Source: a virus
Virus record (IMG/VR): IMGVR_UViG_3300004369_000928
Coordinates: 1 to 30,547 of that record
Length of the DNA: 30,547 nucleotides
Reading direction: 5' to 3' (one strand)
A program made the position numbers and the translations under genes. How positions within the stretch are numbered: the first letter of the stretch is position 1; every line of letters begins with the position of its first letter. Below the pieces are notes generated by a model that had not been told where the DNA came from, did not search any database, and worked only from the letters and a program-made list of their open reading frames with translations. Positions 481 to 30,325 of the stretch are shown in pieces.

Positions 481-657
481 ATGTACGAAGAATTAGACTG
501 CTTTGAAGAAGCACTTAAACACTTTGGAACTAGAGTTGAGATCATTTGTGCTATGGAATTATCAAGGAGAATAGAGTCTGAAGATGCATATCAAATGATT
601 AAGGATGAACTTAAAGAAGTGAAAAAATGTCGTAAAAGTTTGAAGAAAGTAAAATGA
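481..657 (+). CDS. Hypothetical protein upstream of thyX, 58 aa
   Basis: ATG at 481 is preceded by a near-consensus ribosome-binding site (AGGAGGT, 471-477) that overlaps the previous stop codon. The frame ends at TGA 655-657 and overlaps the thyX start as ATGA, which implies translational coupling. The protein looks fully helical: an acidic first third (M-Y-E-E-L-D-C-F-E-E-A-L), a central segment with I, C, A, M, L, and a strongly basic end with many K residues. No domain with a known function is recognised. Its fixed place before thyX suggests early co-expression but not a specific role. Confidence 0.75.
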   Translation: MYEELDCFEEALKHFGTRVEIICAMELSRRIESEDAYQMIKDELKEVKKCRKSLKKVK

Positions 658-1343
658 ATGATGTTAAATTGATCTCTGTTACACCTGATGCAGAAAAGCA
701 CATGGCCTATTGTGCCCGTGTAAGTAACCCTAAGAATCAGGACAATGAAAAGATTGCTGGTCTTCTTAAGTATTGTATTAATCATCAACACTGGAGCATC
801 TTTGAGCAAGCATTTATGACCCTTGAGATTGAAACTACAAGGGGATTAGCAGCTCAAATACTTCGGCATAGGAGTTTCACATATCAAGAATTTTCGCAGC
901 GATATGCTGATTCTTCTATGCTTGCTAATGAGATTCCTCTTCCAGAACTTCGTAGGCAAGACACAAAGAATCGTCAGAATAGTATCGATGATGTAGATCC
1001 TTTTACTATTCAGAAGTATCAGATCCTGATGCAAGACCATTTCAAAAAAGGAATGGAATTGTACAAGAGTATGCTTGATGATGATATTGCAAAGGAATGT
1101 GCCCGGTTTGTGCTTCCCCTCGCTGTGCCCACCAGGCTATACATGACCGGTTCTGTGAGGTCATGGATCCATTATATCGATTTGCGCTCTGCAAACGGCA
1201 CACAGAAGGAGCATATGGACATTGCTGAGTCTGCACGTTGTATTTTCTGCTGCCAGTTTCCCACTATTGCTGAAGCATTGGGTTGGGACAGGAAAGAAGA
1301 TTGTCCTGAGTGTGTTGATCAATCTGCTATCACGCTTGAATAA
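654..1343 (+). CDS. thyX: Flavin-dependent thymidylate synthase ThyX
   Basis: ThyX makes dTMP from dUMP using methylene-tetrahydrofolate, FAD and NADPH, and so supplies thymidine for phage DNA synthesis. The 229-aa length fits the family. The signature occurs at residues 71-83 as RHRSFTYQEFSQR (family form RHRxxSxxxxSxR, with T in place of the first S). The later block around SVRSWIHYIDLRSANGTQ matches the conserved C-terminal R-S-W-x-H and L-R region. The start at 654 overlaps the preceding stop (ATGA). The gene belongs to the unit driven by the promoter at 258-286. It is followed, after a possible late promoter at its own stop codon, by the carbamoyltransferase cluster. thyX is a frequent cyanophage auxiliary gene. 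Confidence 0.95.
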   Translation: MNDVKLISVTPDAEKHMAYCARVSNPKNQDNEKIAGLLKYCINHQHWSIFEQAFMTLEIETTRGLAAQILRHRSFTYQEFSQRYADSSMLANEIPLPELRRQDTKNRQNSIDDVDPFTIQKYQILMQDHFKKGMELYKSMLDDDIAKECARFVLPLAVPTRLYMTGSVRSWIHYIDLRSANGTQKEHMDIAESARCIFCCQFPTIAEALGWDRKEDCPECVDQSAITLE

Positions 1344-1372: not shown

Positions 1373-1957
1373 ATGAAGAGAATTAAAAATGTAAGTACTC
1401 ATGAAATTGTTGGGTTGCTCGGTGCTCATGCAGCGATTGCAATGTTCCAAGGAAAAGCAGAAGCTGGTCCTAGAGCACTTGGAAATAGATCTATAATCTT
1501 TGATCCAAGACTTCATAATGGAAGAGTTTATATCAACCGTTTAAAACAAAGAGAATATTGGAGACCTTTTGCGGGGACAATTTTAAAAGAATTTGCTGGT
1601 AACTGGTTTGACTTAAAAGGAATGGAGGATTCTCCATGGATGAGCTATGCAGTAAAGATTAAAGATCCAGAAAAAAATTCTGAATTGATTCCTGCAATTT
1701 TGCATAAAGATCATACTTGCAGAATTCAAACTTTGAGTAAGGAACAAAATCCAATTTTTTGGGGATTGATATATAACTTTTGGAAAAGTTGTGACTGGAA
1801 AACTACTCCTCCTATCATTGGAAACACATCATTTAATATTGCTGGAGAACCTCTTGTACATACAATAGATGATGCAATAAGAACTCTAGAAAATAGTAAA
1901 TTGGAATATCTTTGGATTCCAGAAGAAAGAGAATTAATCGTCGTATCTAACAAGTAA
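1373..1957 (+). CDS. Stand-alone carbamoyltransferase C-terminal (YrdC-like) domain, copy 1
   Basis: This 194-aa protein matches only the C-terminal domain of NodU/CmcH/TobZ-type O-carbamoyltransferases. Landmarks are A-G-P-R-A-L-G-N-R-S at residues 31-40, D-P-R at 44-46, R-E-Y-W-R-P-F-A at 60-67, and later a C-R-I-Q-T-L block and an N-T-S-F-N-I-A-G-E-P block. In TobZ this domain makes carbamoyl-adenylate from carbamoyl phosphate and ATP, and the N-terminal Kae1-like domain transfers the carbamoyl group to an acceptor hydroxyl. Here the domain is encoded alone and precedes an N-terminal-domain gene by 5 nt, reversing the order of fused enzymes. It keeps the family proline in G-P-R-A-L-G, unlike the second copy. 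Partner and acceptor are unknown; activity would require association with one of the N-domain proteins. Confidence 0.85.
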   Translation: MKRIKNVSTHEIVGLLGAHAAIAMFQGKAEAGPRALGNRSIIFDPRLHNGRVYINRLKQREYWRPFAGTILKEFAGNWFDLKGMEDSPWMSYAVKIKDPEKNSELIPAILHKDHTCRIQTLSKEQNPIFWGLIYNFWKSCDWKTTPPIIGNTSFNIAGEPLVHTIDDAIRTLENSKLEYLWIPEERELIVVSNK

Positions 1958-1962
1958 TTAAC

Positions 1963-3144
1963 ATGAAAATATTAGGAATCAATATCTCTCATCATGGATC
2001 CTCTTGTTTGATAGAAGATGGTAAAGTTAAATTTTTTTTGGAAGATGAAAGAACAAGCAGAATAAAGCACTATTGTGTTACTGAAAATTATTTGGGATTT
2101 AAAGCTGGAAAAGTTCCCATTTACTTTTTAGAAGATCTTCTAAAGCATACTAATCATATAGATTATATTGTTTTCTCATCATTTGAAAGAGAAGAAGAAG
2201 ATATTCATACATCTGATGATTTTATTATTGATCAATATCTATCTCGTTTAGAAGAAGGTGGTATTACTTGGGGTGAAGTTGTATTTGATTCTGAGAATCA
2301 CCACATTTATCATGCAGCAAATGGATTTTATGGATCAGGATTTGATGATGCTGTTTCGTTAGTCATTGATGGTGGTGGTGGACTTTACAAAAATGAAGAA
2401 GTCATGAAAAAAGTGACTGGTGGTCCTGATTACTTTAGAGAAGTAGAAAGCATTTATAGATGTAACTACTCTGATGGTATTCAAAAAGTATGGCAGCACT
2501 ATGGATTTGATAGTTCTTCGCCAGAAAGTACTAGTGATGTAATGCCTGATGATATTTTTGTACATGAAGAAGAGAAAGATGTACTTTCAAATTCTTTAAG
2601 TTGTGGTCCTTTGTTTAATAGATTATCGTATTTACTTGGATTTAAGGATGGTAGTGATTCTGGAAAAGTCATGGGTATGGCTTCTTACATCATGAATTTA
2701 AATGATGCACAATTATCTCCATACTGGTGGGATGAATGTGAATGGTTTGTTGAAGAAAATGGTGTTTGGGTGACGAGTGAAGACTTATCTGATGGACTTG
2801 CAGACTCGGATTTTCCTTTCGACAGAAATAATTTTAAAACTGATTTTTATTTGAAGTGTAGAGTAGCAAAAAAACTTCAGGATGAAACGTTTGAGCACAC
2901 TGCAAGACTGATTGAAAAAGCAATTGATCTGACTGGATGTAAGAATATTATTTTAAGTGGAGGATATGCTCAAAATTGTTTAAATAACTATAGATATTTG
3001 GATATATTACCAAAAGGTGTTAAACTGTATGTAGATCCAATAGCAAATGATTCTGGAACTGCATTAGGAGCTGCTCAATGGTTATATTATAAGTTAACCA
3101 AGTCTCAAGAAAAGAATCCACTGACCACTTTATACCTTAGTTAA
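1963..3144 (+). CDS. Stand-alone carbamoyltransferase N-terminal (Kae1-like) domain, copy 1
   Basis: This 393-aa protein covers the Kae1-like N-terminal domain of the O-carbamoyltransferase family and stops before the C-terminal domain. Motifs in order: G-I-N-I-S-H-H-G-S-S near the start, L-E-D-E-R-T-S-R-I-K-H at 26-36, H-H-I-Y-H at 113-117 (HxxxH metal ligands), I-D-G-G-G-G with D136, then S-G-K-V-M-G-M-A-S-Y, L-S-G-G-Y-A-Q-N, and N-D-S-G-T-A-L-G with D363. By analogy with TobZ, the two His and two Asp residues bind the catalytic iron. The protein ends at L-Y-L-S, where full-length enzymes continue into the inter-domain linker, so the split is exactly at the domain border. The next gene, 1 nt downstream, supplies a C-terminal domain; the two are a plausible heterodimer. 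Confidence 0.85.
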   Translation: MKILGINISHHGSSCLIEDGKVKFFLEDERTSRIKHYCVTENYLGFKAGKVPIYFLEDLLKHTNHIDYIVFSSFEREEEDIHTSDDFIIDQYLSRLEEGGITWGEVVFDSENHHIYHAANGFYGSGFDDAVSLVIDGGGGLYKNEEVMKKVTGGPDYFREVESIYRCNYSDGIQKVWQHYGFDSSSPESTSDVMPDDIFVHEEEKDVLSNSLSCGPLFNRLSYLLGFKDGSDSGKVMGMASYIMNLNDAQLSPYWWDECEWFVEENGVWVTSEDLSDGLADSDFPFDRNNFKTDFYLKCRVAKKLQDETFEHTARLIEKAIDLTGCKNIILSGGYAQNCLNNYRYLDILPKGVKLYVDPIANDSGTALGAAQWLYYKLTKSQEKNPLTTLYLS

Positions 3145-3145
3145 T

Positions 3146-3712
3146 ATGAAAATAATAGAGAATGTTTCTACTGTTGATGTTGTAAATAAAATTCTAGATC
3201 AAAAAATTGTAACTCTTTTTCAAGGTAGATCTGAAGCAGGTGAAAGAGCACTTGGGAATAGATCTATCCTTTTTGATCCAAGAAATAAAAACGGAAAAAA
3301 TATTGTTAATATAGTAAAGAAAAGAGAATCATTTCGACCTTTTGCTGGAACGATTCTTTATGAATATGCAAAAGATTATTTTCATATGGGATCCCTTGAT
3401 GAATCACCTTTCATGGGATTTTCTTTGAGGTGTAGGGAAGAAAAGATTAAAGAAATCCCAGCTATAATTCACGTTGACGGAACTTGCAGAATCCAAACTC
3501 TTAAAAGAAAACAGAACCCACATTATTATAAATTGATTTCTCAATTTTATATTATGACTGGTGTTCCTGTTTTGTTAAATACTTCTTTTAATTTGGCTGG
3601 AGATCCTCTTGTAGAAACACCAGAAGATGCTATCGACACTTTAAAAAAATCTAAAATTGATTACCTATATCTTCCTGAGATTAACATGTTGGTGGAAAAT
3701 GAATATGAATGA
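3146..3712 (+). CDS. Stand-alone carbamoyltransferase C-terminal (YrdC-like) domain, copy 2
   Basis: This 188-aa protein is a paralogue of the one at 1373: the starts align (M-K-I-I-E-N-V-S-T against M-K-R-I-K-N-V-S-T) and both then give F-Q-G, a G-x-R-A-L-G-N-R-S motif (residues 32-40), D-P-R and R-P-F-A-G-T-I. It differs by Glu33 where the family has Pro in G-P-R-A-L-G. The later blocks G-T-C-R-I-Q-T-L and N-T-S-F-N-L-A-G-D-P are present, so it is not obviously decayed. It follows the N-domain gene by 1 nt and its stop overlaps the start region of the next N-domain gene, which implies coupled translation and stoichiometric assembly. The substrate is unknown. Confidence 0.85.
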   Translation: MKIIENVSTVDVVNKILDQKIVTLFQGRSEAGERALGNRSILFDPRNKNGKNIVNIVKKRESFRPFAGTILYEYAKDYFHMGSLDESPFMGFSLRCREEKIKEIPAIIHVDGTCRIQTLKRKQNPHYYKLISQFYIMTGVPVLLNTSFNLAGDPLVETPEDAIDTLKKSKIDYLYLPEINMLVENEYE

Positions 3713-4925
3713 TCAAACAGAATGGATTCTATCAATAAGTCTTGGTGCACATGATGGAGCTGTAACTCTTTTAAAAAATGGAAAAGTTGAATTGCATTTA
3801 AAGGAAGAAAGAATTAGTAGATTAAAACATGATTCTAATTTTCCATTTTCTTCTTTTAAAGTTGTTGCGGAGCATACAAAAAGTCTTTCAAAACTTTTAC
3901 TAGGAAATGTTACTCCTGAAATTACGAAAAGTATTTTTTTTCAACTAGAGAAATATAGAATAAGTCTTCTTGAGTTTTCAGAAAAAATTTGTGAATCAAG
4001 TGATGAGCATCATTTATTCCATGCTGCTTCTGGATTTTATTTTTCTGATTTTAATCATGCAATTTGTTTAGTTATGGATGGATGGGGATCCTGTAGCCAT
4101 GGTGCTTATTCTTTAGCATCTGAAGGTTTTCCATTTGATCCTATTGTTGTAGATGAAACTACTAGCATCTATGAAGCTAAATTTCCAGACAAGATAGAAC
4201 TAGTTAAAAAATATGGAGTTTATGATCCTCATAGGATAGATGGATTACATGATTTGCAATGTAATAACTGTCAGTGGGAATCTGGAACAAGCGATGTAAG
4301 AGTTCCATCGGTAAAACAATTTTTTGAGACAAACGATAAGATGGTTGTTTCCAGTCACATGGACATTGGAGTTATGTATGGAGTAGTTAGTGCTTTTCTT
4401 GGATTTGATAATATAGATTGCGGAAAAACAATGGGACTTTCTGCATATGGTGAAGAAGATGATACTCTCCCTCCATTTTTTATTGAAGGAACACTAACTT
4501 CAAATAAAAATTTATTTACTCAAAGTAGAACTTTAGACAAAGAAAATTATCCAGTTTTAAATACAATTAATGAGTCGAAACAAAAACGAGCAAATCTTGC
4601 GTACAAAATACAAAAATCATTAGAGAAAAAATTTATAGAAAGAGTCTCTTATATTGATGAAAATTTTGAATGTAAGAACATCGTTATAAGTGGTGGCTGT
4701 GCATTAAATATAGTTGCAAATGGTTTACTACTTGAAAAGTTTCCTCACTTAAATTTTTTTATTGATCCAATTCCTAATGATTCTGGACAGTCTTTGGGAA
4801 TGGCTTTATTATGGCACTATCAAAATGGTCCAAAGGAAATATCTAAACCTAACACTAATACTACTTTTTTAGGACCACACTATAGTAAAGAAGAATTAGA
4901 AGAAAGAATTAGGGAGGCAGTATGA
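3705..4925 (+). CDS. Stand-alone carbamoyltransferase N-terminal (Kae1-like) domain, copy 2
   Basis: With the start at 3705 the protein has 406 aa. This start is preferred because GGTGGA at 3691-3696 lies 8 nt upstream and because residue 1 then aligns with the paralogue at 4922; an upstream in-frame ATG at 3657 lies deep inside the previous gene. Motifs: L-G-A-H-D-G-A near the start, L-K-E-E-R-I-S-R-L-K-H at 32-42, H-H-L-F-H at 102-106, M-D-G-W-G with D125, C-G-K-T-M-G-L-S-A-Y, I-S-G-G-C-A-L-N and N-D-S-G-Q-S-L-G. All four predicted metal ligands are kept. The end (F-L-G-P-H-Y, then E-E-L-E-E-R-I) matches the first part of the inter-domain linker, and the C-terminal domain is absent. Confidence 0.85.
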   Translation: MNDQTEWILSISLGAHDGAVTLLKNGKVELHLKEERISRLKHDSNFPFSSFKVVAEHTKSLSKLLLGNVTPEITKSIFFQLEKYRISLLEFSEKICESSDEHHLFHAASGFYFSDFNHAICLVMDGWGSCSHGAYSLASEGFPFDPIVVDETTSIYEAKFPDKIELVKKYGVYDPHRIDGLHDLQCNNCQWESGTSDVRVPSVKQFFETNDKMVVSSHMDIGVMYGVVSAFLGFDNIDCGKTMGLSAYGEEDDTLPPFFIEGTLTSNKNLFTQSRTLDKENYPVLNTINESKQKRANLAYKIQKSLEKKFIERVSYIDENFECKNIVISGGCALNIVANGLLLEKFPHLNFFIDPIPNDSGQSLGMALLWHYQNGPKEISKPNTNTTFLGPHYSKEELEERIREAV

Positions 4926-6196
4926 GAGAAATAGAATGGATGTTAGGTATTAATGTTGCTGGACATGGAGGAAGTATTTGTTTGCTTCATAGGGGTGAAC
5001 TAGTTATCTTTTTAAAAGAAGAAAGGATAAGTAGAACTAAAAGAGACCATTCTTGTCCCTTTATATGTGTTAAAGAAATTTTGCAATACACTAATCATCT
5101 TGATTATGTTGTTTTTGCTAATACTAATGATGAAGATCAACAACATTTTAAATCTCTTTTTAGAAAACATAGAATTAGAGTGGATAGTTATTTTGACGAT
5201 GATGTTCTTTCTAGTGATAAGCAACTGTACGTGAGAAATAAGTATTCTACTCACCATTTAAATCATGCTTCTTCAGGATATTATTTGTCTCCCTTTGAAG
5301 AATCTATTTGTGTAGTAATGGATGGATGGGGGCACATTGGTGATCTAATTAGTTTGTTTAACAATGATTTTTATGGTGGTATAGATTTGATTCTTGGTCA
5401 CAGGTTATATGAACACGTTACTATTTTAAAAAAAGAAAGAAGTAATACTTGGAAAGATCAGTGGAAAGTCCTCTACAAAGAAGTAGCTACTGACTGTAAT
5501 CGTGGAAGTGAATATGAAGGAGAATATACAAGTTGGAGTAACATGGAGGGCGATCTAAAAGAATTGTATTCTTCTCAAATTGAACTTGATGAAGAAAATC
5601 TTCGCTTAGTTCCTACAATTAGCAGTGGAGTTATGTATGAAGCAGTCACTGGATTTCTGGGATTTAATGTAGAAGATGTTGGAAAAGTCATGGGACTTTC
5701 TCCTTATGGGAAAGAAGATAAAAATCTTCCACCATTTTTCTGCAATGAAAAATTTGATTCTAATGCTAATTTATTTCATCCATCTTTGCTTTTGAATAAT
5801 GTTATATATCCTGATCTGGATGACTATAGAGATTCATTTGAGAAGAGATCTAATCTTGCATATGCTGTTCAAAATGCATTAGAGAAAAAAGTTCTATACA
5901 TTATAGACAAAGCTATGAAATTAGATCCTTGTAAAAATATAGTCTTAAGTGGAGGAATATTTCACAATATTGTAATTAACGGAATTCTTGTAGAAAAATA
6001 TCCAGATTATAATTTTTTTGCTGATCCTTTATGTGATGATGCTGGTCACTCATATGGATCTGCAAAAATGGTTTATGATGAAGTGACTGGTAATCATGTA
6101 AAAGATAATGTTGATAATCTTTTCTTAGGACCTCATTATGATGTAAGTAAACTAGAGAAAAGAATTCGTAAACATATTCAAAAAGTTAGCAAATAA
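4922..6196 (+). CDS. Stand-alone carbamoyltransferase N-terminal (Kae1-like) domain, copy 3
   Basis: This 424-aa protein overlaps the previous gene by ATGA and has a good AGGGAGG site at 4911-4917. Motifs: L-G-I-N-V-A-G-H-G-G-S, L-K-E-E-R-I-S-R-T-K at 31-40, H-H-L-N-H at 111-115, M-D-G-W-G-H with D134, V-G-K-V-M-G-L-S-P-Y, L-S-G-G-I-F-H-N and D-D-A-G-H-S-Y-G. The last block differs from the N-D-S-G form of the other two copies, and I-F-H-N replaces the usual A-L-N, so the acceptor pocket may have diverged. Like copy 2 it ends in F-L-G-P-H-Y plus a charged helix and has no C-terminal domain. No C-domain gene follows; it would have to share one of the two upstream subunits. Confidence 0.85.
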   Translation: MREIEWMLGINVAGHGGSICLLHRGELVIFLKEERISRTKRDHSCPFICVKEILQYTNHLDYVVFANTNDEDQQHFKSLFRKHRIRVDSYFDDDVLSSDKQLYVRNKYSTHHLNHASSGYYLSPFEESICVVMDGWGHIGDLISLFNNDFYGGIDLILGHRLYEHVTILKKERSNTWKDQWKVLYKEVATDCNRGSEYEGEYTSWSNMEGDLKELYSSQIELDEENLRLVPTISSGVMYEAVTGFLGFNVEDVGKVMGLSPYGKEDKNLPPFFCNEKFDSNANLFHPSLLLNNVIYPDLDDYRDSFEKRSNLAYAVQNALEKKVLYIIDKAMKLDPCKNIVLSGGIFHNIVINGILVEKYPDYNFFADPLCDDAGHSYGSAKMVYDEVTGNHVKDNVDNLFLGPHYDVSKLEKRIRKHIQKVSK

Positions 6197-6221: not shown

Positions 6222-6470
6222 ATGGCTACATATCCTGTTATTAATACAAAAACTGGTGAACAAAAAGAAGTGAAGATGAGCGTTCATGAATGGGATCAGT
6301 GGAAAGAAGACAATCCCGATTGGTTGAGAGATTACTCTGATCCATCAACTATGCCTGGTGTGGGTGAGGTTGGTGAGTGGAAAGACAAGCTCGTCGCCAA
6401 AAATCCTGGATGGAATGATGTGCTTAAGAAGGCATCGGAAGCCCCTGGATCTTACGTCAAACCTATCTAA
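6222..6470 (+). CDS. Conserved hypothetical cyanophage protein, 82 aa, upstream of phoH
   Basis: The 82-aa product starts M-A-T-Y-P-V-I-N-T-K-T-G-E and contains a Trp-rich central part (V-H-E-W-D-Q-W-K-E-D-N-P-D-W-L) followed by D-P-S-T-M-P-G-V-G-E-V-G-E-W-K-D-K-L and N-P-G-W-N. I recall similar small proteins in T4-like cyanophages but know no function. The first segment resembles the start of FmdB-type regulatory proteins, but no zinc-binding cysteines are present, so I do not assign that name. There is no convincing ribosome-binding site before the start. It is 7 nt from phoH and probably co-transcribed with it. Confidence 0.75.
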   Translation: MATYPVINTKTGEQKEVKMSVHEWDQWKEDNPDWLRDYSDPSTMPGVGEVGEWKDKLVAKNPGWNDVLKKASEAPGSYVKPI

Positions 6471-6477
6471 TTCTTTT

Positions 6478-7233
6478 ATGCCTAAAAAGAGAAAGAACAA
6501 TGACCAACCTATTGGAGTTGGACTGACTGCAAAACAGATGAAGCGCAAGAAACCAATTAATACTGATTTCTTGATAGACATTGAACCATTAACGGATAAT
6601 CAGCAGAGATTATTTGATTCATATGCGGATGATAAACAAATAGTTGCATATGGTGCTGCTGGTACAGGTAAAACATTTATTACGCTGTACAATGCTATTC
6701 GAGATGTACTAGATGAAAACTCTCCATATCAAAAGATTTACATCGTTCGTTCTTTAGTTGCAACTCGTGAAATTGGTTTCCTTCCTGGGGATCATGAAGA
6801 TAAATCATCCCTTTATCAGATTCCATATAAGAATATGGTGAAGTATATGTTTGAGATGCCTACAGATACAGACTTTGAAATGCTGTATGGTAATCTTAAA
6901 ACTCAAGGTACTATTTCTTTCTGGTCTACTTCTTTCCTTAGAGGAACAACATTAGATAATGCTATTGTTATCGTTGATGAATTTCAAAACTTGAATTTTC
7001 ATGAACTCGATAGTATAATTACTAGAGTTGGTGAGAATACTCGGATTGCATTCTGTGGTGATGCAACGCAAACCGATTTAACAAAAACAAATGAGAGAAA
7101 TGGAATCGTTGATTTCATGACTATTCTCAGAGCAATGCCTTCATTTGATATTATTGAATTTGGTCTTGAAGATATTGTTAGATCTGGACTTTGCAAAGAA
7201 TACTTAGTAGCTAAAAACGAACTTAAACTCTGA
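6478..7233 (+). CDS. phoH: PhoH-like P-loop ATPase
   Basis: The 251-aa product carries a Walker A motif G-A-A-G-T-G-K-T at residues 59-66 and a Walker B motif I-V-I-V-D-E-F-Q-N-L, with G-D-A-T-Q-T-D-L further on, the standard PhoH arrangement. PhoH is a cytoplasmic ATPase, in E. coli part of the phosphate-starvation regulon. It is nearly universal in marine phages, but its role in infection is unresolved. The start at 6478 is chosen because the longer frame from 6358 runs through the previous gene, while M-P-K-K-R-K gives the usual length of about 250 aa. Neighbours are a small conserved gene before it and a RecB-like nuclease 6 nt after it. No pho box was identified here. Confidence 0.93.
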   Translation: MPKKRKNNDQPIGVGLTAKQMKRKKPINTDFLIDIEPLTDNQQRLFDSYADDKQIVAYGAAGTGKTFITLYNAIRDVLDENSPYQKIYIVRSLVATREIGFLPGDHEDKSSLYQIPYKNMVKYMFEMPTDTDFEMLYGNLKTQGTISFWSTSFLRGTTLDNAIVIVDEFQNLNFHELDSIITRVGENTRIAFCGDATQTDLTKTNERNGIVDFMTILRAMPSFDIIEFGLEDIVRSGLCKEYLVAKNELKL

Positions 7234-27809: not shown

Positions 27810-28631
27810 ATGGAAATTAATACAGATTTAACAATAGGCAAAAGGTTATTTGTTGGGGAAGGAAATCCTCTTGTTACTGGATTGGGTCCAACAGAACAAC
27901 GTGGAGCTGCTTATGTTGAAGGTCCAGCAGTTATTGGTGATGCTGGTGCTTGGCCTCCTATTTTACCAGCAGCAACTTGCATGATTGGTCCATTGGTGAA
28001 TAGTGATGCGCCTACTCCTATAATTTTGGGAATTATTCCTTCTTGTCTTCCAGTAAATAATTCTCCATATTCTCTTTCTGTTAGTGGTCCTACTGCTCTT
28101 CTCGGCGCATTAGACGTTGATGCTGATATTAACAATAGTGGAAATATCGGTGCTGGTGGAAATATCATTGCAAAAGGACATGTAATGTCTCAATGTGGTG
28201 GACATATTCTTGCTGCAAAAAAGAACTTTGATATTCCCCACCCATCCAAAAAAGGTTATAGATTAAGACATACTTGTCCCGAAGCTCCTTACAATGATGT
28301 TTACATTAGAGGAAAAGTAGTCAATAAAACTAAGATTGAACTTCCATCATATTGGAAAGATTTTGTTGATATGGACTCTATCTCTGTACAACTTCAACCT
28401 ATTGGAGCACATCAAGACGTTATAGTTAAGCGTATTGATGAAGACTACATATATTTACAGGCAAAAGGTGGAATGCCAATTAATTGTTACTATCATGTTT
28501 TTGCTGAAAGAAATGATGGTGAAAAATTAATTCCTGTGTATAAAGGAAAAACTCCTGCGGATTACCCAGGAAATAATGACGAATATTCAGTTTCTGGATA
28601 TCACTACGACGTAAGACAAACGGAGGATTAA
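27810..28631 (+). CDS. Virion structural protein with shared C-terminal module, copy 1
   Basis: The 273-aa product has an N-terminal G/P/A-rich part with beta character (D-L-T-I-G-K-R-L-F-V-G-E-G-N-P, later D-A-D-I-N-N-S-G-N-I-G-A-G-G-N-I). The C-terminal module of about 130 residues begins F-D-I-P-H-P-S-K-K-G-Y-R-L-R-H and contains V-Y-I-R-G-K-V, L-P-S-Y-W-K-D and C-Y-Y-H-V-F-A-E-R. The same module ends the next protein. I know such domains from structural proteins and tail appendages of T4-like cyanophages but no biochemical function. It has a modest AATGAGG ribosome-binding site. Likely a baseplate-proximal fibre or spike component. Confidence 0.65.
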   Translation: MEINTDLTIGKRLFVGEGNPLVTGLGPTEQRGAAYVEGPAVIGDAGAWPPILPAATCMIGPLVNSDAPTPIILGIIPSCLPVNNSPYSLSVSGPTALLGALDVDADINNSGNIGAGGNIIAKGHVMSQCGGHILAAKKNFDIPHPSKKGYRLRHTCPEAPYNDVYIRGKVVNKTKIELPSYWKDFVDMDSISVQLQPIGAHQDVIVKRIDEDYIYLQAKGGMPINCYYHVFAERNDGEKLIPVYKGKTPADYPGNNDEYSVSGYHYDVRQTED

Positions 28632-28633
28632 TT

Positions 28634-29311
28634 ATGGCTGGCGAAGTTTCATTCCCAACAGAAAATACACCTGTTGGAGGTTCTAAAAATTGTGATGGTC
28701 CTGTAATAGGAACACCACATCCAAGTTTTGACTATATTCATAGAACTACAACTGGTGATGACGATTATCCAGAAGATGCGTGTCCTTTGTGGCTTCAAGT
28801 AAATGGTAAGTTTGATAATCTTCAAGTAACTTCCAATGTAACTGCATCAACATTCAATGGAAATATTAATGTTCAATCTTGGAAAGGATTTGATATTAAG
28901 CATCCCAATAAAGAGAATCATCGTCTCAGACACATCTGTCTAGAAGGACCAGAAGCAGGTGTTTATATCAGAGGTAGACTTACTAATAACAATGTAATCA
29001 ATCTCCCTGAGTATTGGAGAGGTCTAATTGATCCCGAAACAATTACAGTTAGTCTGACTCAAATTGGTTGCTCTCAGGATTTATTTGTAGAAAGTATTGA
29101 GTGGGGAACAACTGTTAAAATTAAGTCTGGAAGTGCTTCAACAATTGATTGTTATTATGTAATCCAAGCTTCTAGAATTGATGGTGAACCTTTGATTGTT
29201 GAATATGAAGGTCAGACACCAGCAGAATACCCTGGAGGCAGCGATCAATTCTCAATTTCTGGATGGGACTACGACAAGAGAGGTCCAGAGCCAACTCCAG
29301 AACCGTCCTAA
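28634..29311 (+). CDS. Virion structural protein with shared C-terminal module, copy 2
   Basis: The 225-aa product has a short unrelated N-terminal part and, from about residue 87, the same module as its neighbour: F-D-I-K-H-P-N-K-E-N-H-R-L-R-H-I-C-L-E-G-P-E, V-Y-I-R-G-R-L, L-P-E-Y-W-R-G, and a Tyr-rich strand before a conserved end (Y-P-G-G-S-D-Q-F-S-I-S-G-W-D-Y-D). C-L-E-G-P-E is the fuller form of the motif that reads C-P-E-A-P-Y in copy 1. The protein ends in a P/E-rich tail. A GGAGG site overlaps the preceding stop codon region, which suggests coupling. It closes the plus-strand baseplate block and is followed by an early-type promoter for the next gene. Confidence 0.65.
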   Translation: MAGEVSFPTENTPVGGSKNCDGPVIGTPHPSFDYIHRTTTGDDDYPEDACPLWLQVNGKFDNLQVTSNVTASTFNGNINVQSWKGFDIKHPNKENHRLRHICLEGPEAGVYIRGRLTNNNVINLPEYWRGLIDPETITVSLTQIGCSQDLFVESIEWGTTVKIKSGSASTIDCYYVIQASRIDGEPLIVEYEGQTPAEYPGGSDQFSISGWDYDKRGPEPTPEPS

Positions 29312-29591: not shown

Positions 29592-29663
29592 GGGACTGTC
29601 GCCTAAAGGTAAAGGTCCTCTGCTTATAACGGAGTGATCTGGGTTCAAGTCCCAGCAGTCCTA
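29592..29663 (+). tRNA. tRNA-Ile (anticodon UAU)
   Basis: A full cloverleaf can be drawn: acceptor 29592-29598 with 29656-29662 (first pair G-U), D-arm GCCT/AGGT, anticodon stem CTCTG/CGGAG around loop CTTATAA with anticodon TAT at positions 34-36, and T-arm CTGGG/CCCAG around TTCAAGT. Discriminator A; no encoded CCA. The unmodified anticodon UAU would read AUA. CAU-type confusion is excluded because the loop reads TAT. It is the first of four tRNA genes here. Confidence 0.88.
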
Positions 29664-29731
29664 CTAAGGAACTTGAGACGTTCCAACCAAAGGTGCCCCA
29701 TAGCAAGCATACTTGGTAAGTCATCCGTCAT

Positions 29732-29816
29732 GGGAGTGTGATGAAACTGGTAAACATTGCGGCCTTAAAAGCCGTTGACCGTAAAGGTCTTGCGGGTTCG
29801 ATCCCCGCCACTCCTA
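29732..29816 (+). tRNA. tRNA-Leu (anticodon UAA)
   Basis: Acceptor GGGAGTG with CACTCCT (first pair G-U), anticodon stem GCGGC/GCCGT around loop CTTAAAA (anticodon TAA), a long variable arm with TGACC/GGTC pairing typical of class II tRNAs, and T-arm GCGGG/CCCGC around TTCGATC. Discriminator A, no encoded CCA. It reads UUA. Confidence 0.92.
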
Positions 29817-29837
29817 CTGCACTAAATAAGTGCGAGC

Positions 29838-29911
29838 GCCAATTTAGCTCAGCTGGATAGAGCAGGGTTTTTGTAAAGCTCAGGTCAACGGTTCAAGTCC
29901 GTTAATTGGCT
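29838..29911 (+). tRNA. tRNA-Thr (anticodon UGU)
   Basis: Acceptor GCCAATT with AATTGGC is fully paired; D-arm GCTC/GAGC, anticodon stem GGGTT/AGCTC around loop TTTGTAA (anticodon TGT), T-arm AACGG/CCGTT around TTCAAGT. Discriminator T, no encoded CCA. It reads ACA. Confidence 0.92.
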
Positions 29912-29993
29912 TTCCTCGGACGTAACTGAGGAAACTGGGTTTAATTTTTTAATTAGATCCTTAGGAATGTGTCTTTTTAGATGTTGGATGCAA

Positions 29994-30021
29994 GACCCTT
30001 AATTATCGAGATCTCGGGGTC
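29994..30021 (+). other. Hairpin and palindrome in the tRNA spacer
   Basis: GACCC (29994-29998) can pair with GGGTC (30017-30021); between them lies the perfect palindrome CGAGATCTCG (30007-30016). There is no T tract after it, so it is not a typical terminator. Confidence 0.6.
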
Positions 30022-30070
30022 ATGTTTACAAGGATCTTGAGACATATTCTAAAAAATACGTTTGATTGTT

Positions 30071-30098
30071 GGGAATGGCGGAATGACCAATCCAAAAC
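30071..30098 (+). repeat. 28-nt direct repeat, copy 1 (hairpin-forming)
   Basis: This element is repeated at 30188-30215 with one difference in 28 positions (C at 30079, T at 30196). GGAATGG (30072-30078) can pair with CCAATCC (30087-30093) with one internal mismatch, leaving an 8-nt loop; the variable base is in the loop. Confidence 0.85.
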
Positions 30099-30187
30099 AA
30101 CAGTTAAACATGATGGAAATAATGTTTCTGACCTCCTAGCGTGTGTTATGCAAACTTAAGTTATTTCTATCAAAACTTTGGGTCGCT

Positions 30188-30215
30188 GGGAATGGTGGAA
30201 TGACCAATCCAAAAC
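30188..30215 (+). repeat. 28-nt direct repeat, copy 2 (hairpin-forming)
   Basis: Second copy, 117 nt after the first and 12 nt before tRNA-Leu(UAG). The hairpin arms are identical to copy 1. Confidence 0.85.
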
Positions 30216-30227
30216 GGCGATCCTATC

Positions 30228-30309
30228 GCTTAAGTGGCGGAATTGGTAGACGCGCTTGGTTTAGGTCCAAGTGGAGTAATCCGTGGAGGTTCAAGTCCTC
30301 TCTTAAGTA
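30228..30309 (+). tRNA. tRNA-Leu (anticodon UAG)
   Basis: Acceptor GCTTAAG with CTTAAGT (first pair G-U), D-arm with GGCGGAATTGGTAGACGC of leucine type, anticodon stem CTTGG/CCAAG around loop TTTAGGT (anticodon TAG), a long variable region, and T-arm GGAGG/CCTCT around TTCAAGT. Discriminator A, no encoded CCA. It reads CUA. Confidence 0.92.
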
Positions 30310-30325
30310 CTTTATTCATCCAATT

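Follow-up and report, generated by a model that had tools for sequence, protein, structure and literature searches.

A putative class III O-carbamoyltransferase of T4-like cyanophages, encoded as separate activating and transfer subunits with transfer subunits in surplus

A viral DNA stretch of 30,547 nucleotides (the window), a fragment of a T4-like cyanophage (IMG/VR record IMGVR_UViG_3300004369_000928), carries at positions 1373-6196 five open reading frames (ORFs) on the same strand, flanked by thyX and by an rbpA-like gene followed by phoH, which, as judged by homology, encode separate halves of a class III O-carbamoyltransferase. In this family, a YrdC-like domain (C) converts carbamoyl phosphate and ATP into carbamoyl-AMP, and a Kae1-like, iron-binding domain (N) passes the carbamoyl group to an acceptor hydroxyl. 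The order of the genes is C1-N1-C2-N2-N3, and the favored interpretation, with a probability of about 0.62, is a split enzyme with a multiplied transfer subunit, where C2 would be shared by N2 and N3 acting on distinct acceptors, most likely sugar or glycan hydroxyls. An earlier reading of the sequence alone had proposed five tightly packed genes encoding the domains separately in the order C-N-C-N-N, which is borne out by the ORFs and their Pfam matches (Table 1). C1 and N1 are separated by 5 bases and N1 and C2 by 1 base, while C2 and N2 overlap by 8-14 bases, depending on the N2 start chosen, and N2 and N3 by 4 bases (ATGA).

All five proteins exceed the curated Pfam cut-offs, C1 and C2 for PF16861 (Carbam_trans_C, 27 bits) and N1, N2 and N3 for PF02543 (Carbam_trans_N, 24 bits). 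On the fused phrog_1601 model of 528 positions, the C proteins match the last third and the N proteins the first two thirds. For C1, matches at 7e-29 to 2e-25 are found to the C halves of VtdB, NovN and GdmN, and C2 is 60% identical to the C2 of Synechococcus phage S-SCSM1. Regarding the active sites, N1, N2 and N3 all retain the HxxxH motif and two aspartates as iron ligands, together with the family general-base histidine, as these residues are given for GdmN (PMC9633730); in N2, H16, H102, H106 and D125 align with H20, H120, H124 and D143 of the TobZ chain. Both C1 and C2 keep RALGNRS, in C2 as GERALGNRS, and the further YrdC-like active-site residues (K-R-E, NTSFN) and other invariant columns are also intact, so that the motifs recognized in the sequence-only reading are present in every subunit. 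Among the viral loci collected, the four metal ligands occur in 117 of 118 stand-alone N domains, the exception being cut by a contig end, and all 14 checked residues in 72 of 74 stand-alone C domains.

The AlphaFold2 models of N1 (predicted local distance difference test, pLDDT, 90; predicted template modeling score, pTM, 0.92) and N3 (pLDDT 88, pTM 0.88) resemble TobZ (3ven) with VIA Z values of 29.6 (residues ~1-366) and 28.8 (~0-386), respectively. Against TobZ, GdmN and NovN, both models reach Z values of 28-30 over the Kae1-like domain (residues 1 to 364-386), and about 20-21 with TsaD. N1 spans the whole Kae1-like domain and N3 the whole domain plus the linker helix after it; thus, the splits fall at the natural domain border, as had been anticipated.

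The five proteins share with TobZ, NodU, CmcH, GdmN, NovN and VtdB the homology of both domains, the Kae1-like fold, the HxxxH and two-aspartate ligands, the general-base histidine (H27 in GdmN) and RALGNRS, differing from them in being separate proteins, with the C gene before N, two C and three N genes and a surplus of N. The sequence and fold features of a TobZ-like member were all found (N domain, C domain, iron ligands with general base, YrdC-like residues) save the placement of both domains on one chain, N then C, and the set is hence filed as a split variant. Separate YrdC-like and Kae1-like proteins also occur in tRNA t6A synthesis, namely TsaC and TsaD. The likeness to TsaC/Sua5 and TsaD, with a separate adenylate maker and transferase, is one of outline, as these are different families: the N1 model scores higher against TobZ (Z ~30) than against TsaD (Z ~21), no Pfam match to the TsaC or TsaD families was found in the five proteins, which gave only PF02543, PF16861 and a sub-threshold HypF_C_2, and the NCBIfam scan returned partial NodU/HypF matches only.

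The split set is not confined to the window. N1 relatives in viral contigs were found by alignment search, and architectures were called with N and C profiles built here in 181 sequences, comprising the viral loci and the window. C-N-C-N-N is found in 8 of them including the window (L014, L015, L017, L019 and L107, with L020 and L106 at contig edges), C-N-C-N in 11, C-N in 12, and C-N-N-C-N and C-N-N-C-N-N once each. In the other gene order, N-C as two genes occurs in 9 sequences and N-C-N in 10, while a fused NC gene with an adjacent lone N is seen in 8 and fused genes only in 104. Among isolates, S-SCSM1 has a split set at the same locus (PQC12_gp175-178), arranged as thyX-C-N-C-N-epimerase-rbpA-phoH, with one N fewer and an additional nucleotide-sugar epimerase, and S-RIM44 and Sf-FP1 have a single C-N pair there (thyX-C-N-rbpA-phoH). 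A fused form, the "Nol-like carbamoyltransferase" seen in other cyanophages (phrog_1601; P-SSM2, S-CAM8, S-SSM7), belongs to the same family and phage group, but as a single chain, in some cases within glycan gene clusters, and in S-SSM7 and Sf-FS3 with one lone additional N nearby.

Meanwhile, in the closest 80 bacterial loci, a single fused gene is present in 76 and a lone C near a contig start in 3, and across 292 cyanobacterial genomes every PF16861 match lies in a frame of at least 489 amino acids, save the fragments of one broken gene. Splitting is a phage trait within this sampling, and it probably arose more than once, since both gene orders occur and the split genes fall on at least two branches of the C tree. 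As a separate observation, Fictibacillus solisalsi (L188) carries three tandem fused O-carbamoyltransferase genes, the only such case among those 80 loci.

As fused homologues are common in phages, the set could be regarded as an ancestral fused gene broken by decay or sequencing error, and the sequence-only reading had named fused homologues in related phages as a sign of it. The homologues at the same locus are mostly split, fused forms lying elsewhere in cyanophages, and the C gene precedes N, an order that could not result from a frameshift within a fused N-C gene. Because the same five-gene order recurs in independent assemblies, with split sets also in isolates, and because the active sites remain complete, with purifying selection acting on them, this explanation was rejected as having next to no probability. 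The ratios of nonsynonymous to synonymous substitution rates (dN/dS) between the window and L014 are 0.16 (C1), 0.20 (N1), 0.05 (C2), 0.29 (N2) and 0.22 (N3), which are rough values as dS is above 1 and near saturation, and C2 is the most conserved of the five, at 0.05-0.13 in the window lineage. These estimates indicate that each of the five genes evolves under purifying selection, in agreement with the earlier impression that none of them looks dead.

The ancestry of the genes was approached with IQ-TREE trees of 73 C domains and 97 N domains, with supports from bootstrap and the Shimodaira-Hasegawa-like approximate likelihood ratio test (SH-aLRT). In the C tree, the C1 genes of the window and S-SCSM1 groups fall together, as do their C2 genes. 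Likewise, the N1 genes of both groups lie in one clade (95/88), and N2 and N3 fall in another (100/99), along with N genes partnered by a C2-like C, with N2 and N3 as sisters within the window lineage (72/80). This topology suggests ancient modules C1-N1 and C2-N2, with N3 derived on the N2 side. The N2 and N3 clades are distinguished by only 6 fixed differences, both being very divergent, and a grouping of the C genes of L002/L009 with those of L052/L097 is not rejected by the approximately unbiased (AU) test (p 0.28).

According to the proposed mechanism, C1 and C2 would form carbamoyl-AMP, and N1, N2 and N3 would transfer the carbamoyl group to different acceptors, within non-covalent C-N complexes that would recreate the TobZ domain interface. 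Judged by their descent, N1 would be served by C1, and both N2 and N3 by C2. Splitting would then free the transfer subunit to duplicate and to swap alleles, while a single activator is kept constant.

The sharing of an activating subunit is suggested, firstly, by the surplus of N. About five lineages, standing at different places of the N tree, have lone additional N genes, namely N3 in the window lineage, an inner N and a fourth N in L124/L125, the L117-type N-C-N, and the N' genes of the L057/L081 type and of the S-SSM7/Sf-FS3 type. The surplus takes the form of NC+N, N-C-N, C-N-C-N-N, C-N-N-C-N and C-N-N-C-N-N, and no intact cluster with C outnumbering N was found among the 181 sequences; in the records searched whole, some being fragments, N genes are at least as many as C genes in 19 of 19. 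Secondly, the N-to-C divergence ratio, with a median of 1.42 in fused homologues (95th percentile 1.74), is 1.2 for C1/N1, 1.4-6.6 (median 2.0) for C2/N2 and 2.1-6.8 for C2/N3, the highest values being found in the lineage where one C2 has two N proteins. Thirdly, when L105 and L107 are compared with L106, phoH downstream of the operon is 100% identical in amino acids and the DNA there mostly 94-100% identical, whereas N1, N2 and N3 share 64-66% amino acid identity and C2 94%, the DNA identity leaping to 97-99% at the end of N3. The alignment of L105:92-4612 with L106:334-4858 is thus a sharp mosaic, near-identical from rbpA onward, with strongly different N1-N3 alleles around a near-identical C2, and it looks like an exchange of specificity alleles around a constant activator.

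Several observations weigh against this interpretation. C domains are more conserved than N domains in fused enzymes too, so that only the excess counts, and the hypervariability of N comes from one clean genome pair, with the S-SCSM1-like pair L120/L122 lacking excess N divergence. Recombination of C2 alone could also contribute to the mosaic, its dS being low as well. Regarding the ancestry, a single clade of C1 and C2 genes from the window lineage is not rejected by the AU test on the short C domain (p 0.21), the two-module history resting, consequently, on the bootstrap and SH-aLRT supports, and the sisterhood of N2 and N3 is only moderately supported. Furthermore, the window has no sugar gene beside the five-gene set. 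The combinatorial system envisaged from the sequence alone, with few activating and several transfer subunits, gains indirect support from the N-only surplus, the conservation of C2 and the N-allele hypervariability, but the ancestry of the genes suggests two modules, C1/N1 and C2/N2+N3, instead of a free pool. In its boldest form, a slowly evolving C2 would dock with interchangeable, hypervariable, acceptor-choosing N subunits, exchanged like serotype-determining alleles, a proposal to be held tentatively and at somewhat less than even odds.

The pairing of C1 with N1 and of C2 with N2 by ancestry is also what two fixed heterodimers would display, with N3 as a non-transferring regulatory or structural protein, for instance, replacing one N in a dimer. 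GdmN is a homodimer in which the partner monomer contributes part of the acceptor pocket (PMC9633730), and C-N-C-N sets do occur without a third N. However, N3 retains the four metal ligands and the general-base histidine under purifying selection and persists in every C-N-C-N-N genome seen, and surplus N genes elsewhere are intact too, making this arrangement unlikely. It is less probable still that the proteins would act as independent enzymes without a lasting complex, C releasing carbamoyl-AMP to be picked up by N. The YrdC-like and Kae1-like proteins of the t6A system are separate (PMC10321239), and in GdmN carbamoyl-AMP was seen only in the Kae1-like domain (PMC9633730); nevertheless, the tight coupling of the genes, with 1-5 base gaps or overlaps, and the fused forms in close relatives both argue for proximity of the two sites.

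In the proposed sharing of C2 by N2 and N3, the likeliest acceptor, from gene context, would be a sugar or glycan hydroxyl, whether of a phage-made nucleotide sugar, a host surface glycan or a virion glycan, and its carbamoylation would serve a surface- or restriction-type arms race. The strongest clue to a sugar is the dTDP-glucose 4,6-dehydratase/epimerase-like gene between N2 and rbpA in S-SCSM1 and its relatives (Table 1), and fused relatives lie amid heptose/epimerase genes in P-SSM2, S-SSM7 and Sf-FS3. Outside the thyX locus, C2-like C-N pairs have sulfotransferase-like neighbors in L110, L113 and L115, a 2-oxoglutarate-Fe(II) (2OG-Fe(II)) oxygenase-like neighbor in L128 and a tail-fiber-like one in L110, so that virion proteins or glycans are also possible acceptors.

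Another acceptor to be considered is DNA, with thyX adjoining the set and a hydroxymethylated pyrimidine as the carbamoylated base. A phage enzyme of the same family produces 5-carbamoyloxymethylcytosine, and homologues of thymidylate synthase accompany the carbamoyltransferases of modified contigs (PMC8670742). This 5-hydroxymethylcytosine (5hmC) carbamoyltransferase (MetaGPA) is a single 63 kDa chain and has RALCNTT in place of RALGNRS, positions 421 and 423 of TobZ being discriminating; C1 and C2 have G and R there, not C and T, and a role on DNA is improbable, as the residues marking the 5hmC clade are absent from both. In addition, the neighbor in the window is a flavin-dependent ThyX (PF02511), not a relative of the PF00303-type hydroxymethylases, and no hydroxymethylase or TET-like gene was seen among the window genes scanned, leaving DNA modification the least probable of the functional alternatives.

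According to the paper on the GdmN structure, both catalytic domains are conserved in the holoenzyme of every characterized class III carbamoyltransferase (PMC9633730), and the carbamoyltransferase genes listed in a cyanophage comparison are all 1524-1803 bp (PMC3037559). No description of split forms or of a transfer-subunit surplus was found in the open-licence papers searched, and the carbamoyl genes are absent from the main text of the S-SCSM1 paper; separate "Nol-like carbamoyltransferase" annotations in S-SCSM1 and S-RIM44 are already public. In S-SZBM1 and S-MS29, phage carbamoyltransferases have been described as pyrimidine-synthesis (PyrB-like) enzymes (PMC9146016, PMC10436341). The annotated "carbamoyltransferase" of S-MS29 matches the N and C domains of the window, and that assignment looks wrong in this case. 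A naturally divided enzyme with transfer subunits in excess would add two-subunit members to class III, offer a ready test of whether the handover of carbamoyl-AMP must occur inside a single chain, and provide a modular tool to direct carbamoylation. It would also point to an unrecognized, rapidly diversifying modification in abundant ocean viruses, at genes that currently bear the generic label "Nol-like" or are placed in pyrimidine synthesis.

Table 1. Genes of the split set, its conserved flanks and the sugar-related gene of S-SCSM1-type loci (window positions unless a locus is named).
Feature	Position	Strand	Match or motif
C1, stand-alone YrdC-like subunit, type I, 194 aa	1373..1957	+	PF16861 7.5e-48, 162.7 bits; GPRALGNRS
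N1, stand-alone Kae1-like transfer subunit, type I, 393 aa	1963..3144	+	PF02543 3.6e-16, 60 bits
C2, stand-alone YrdC-like subunit, type II, 188 aa	3146..3712	+	PF16861 9.9e-61, 204.6 bits
N2, stand-alone Kae1-like transfer subunit, 406 aa	3705..4925 (ATG 3705; alternative start 3699)	+	PF02543 5.3e-32, 112 bits
N3, additional Kae1-like transfer subunit lacking a C of its own, 424 aa	4922..6196	+	PF02543 7.2e-21, 75.4 bits
thyX, conserved left flank	654..1343	+	PF02511 1.8e-45
RbpA-like transcription factor, conserved right flank	6222..6470	+	phrog_385 transcriptional regulator 2.4e-31
phoH, conserved right flank	6478..7233	+	PF02562 2e-42
dTDP-glucose 4,6-dehydratase/epimerase-like gene directly after N2	L114:3998-5023 (scanned); L119, L121, L134, L001 (by position); S-SCSM1 (by annotation)		

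Further features were noted in related loci and in the rest of the window. In the lineage with N' at the thyX-phoH locus, N' and the rbpA-like gene are separated by a radical S-adenosylmethionine (SAM) gene (PF04055, ~2e-10; L081:7342-8130, L010:5447-6238), which is possibly part of the same pathway. In the window, the gene at 9146-9742 matches phrog_274 ("DNA endonuclease V", 2.7e-14), a PHROG name that may be a misnomer, and also weakly matches a 2OG-Fe(II) oxygenase, under the Pfam cut-off. Two adjacent paralogues beside tail genes (27810-28631 and 28634-29311) both match phrog_17490 and phrog_28536, and four tRNA genes (Ile, Leu, Thr, Leu) are clustered at 29592-30310.

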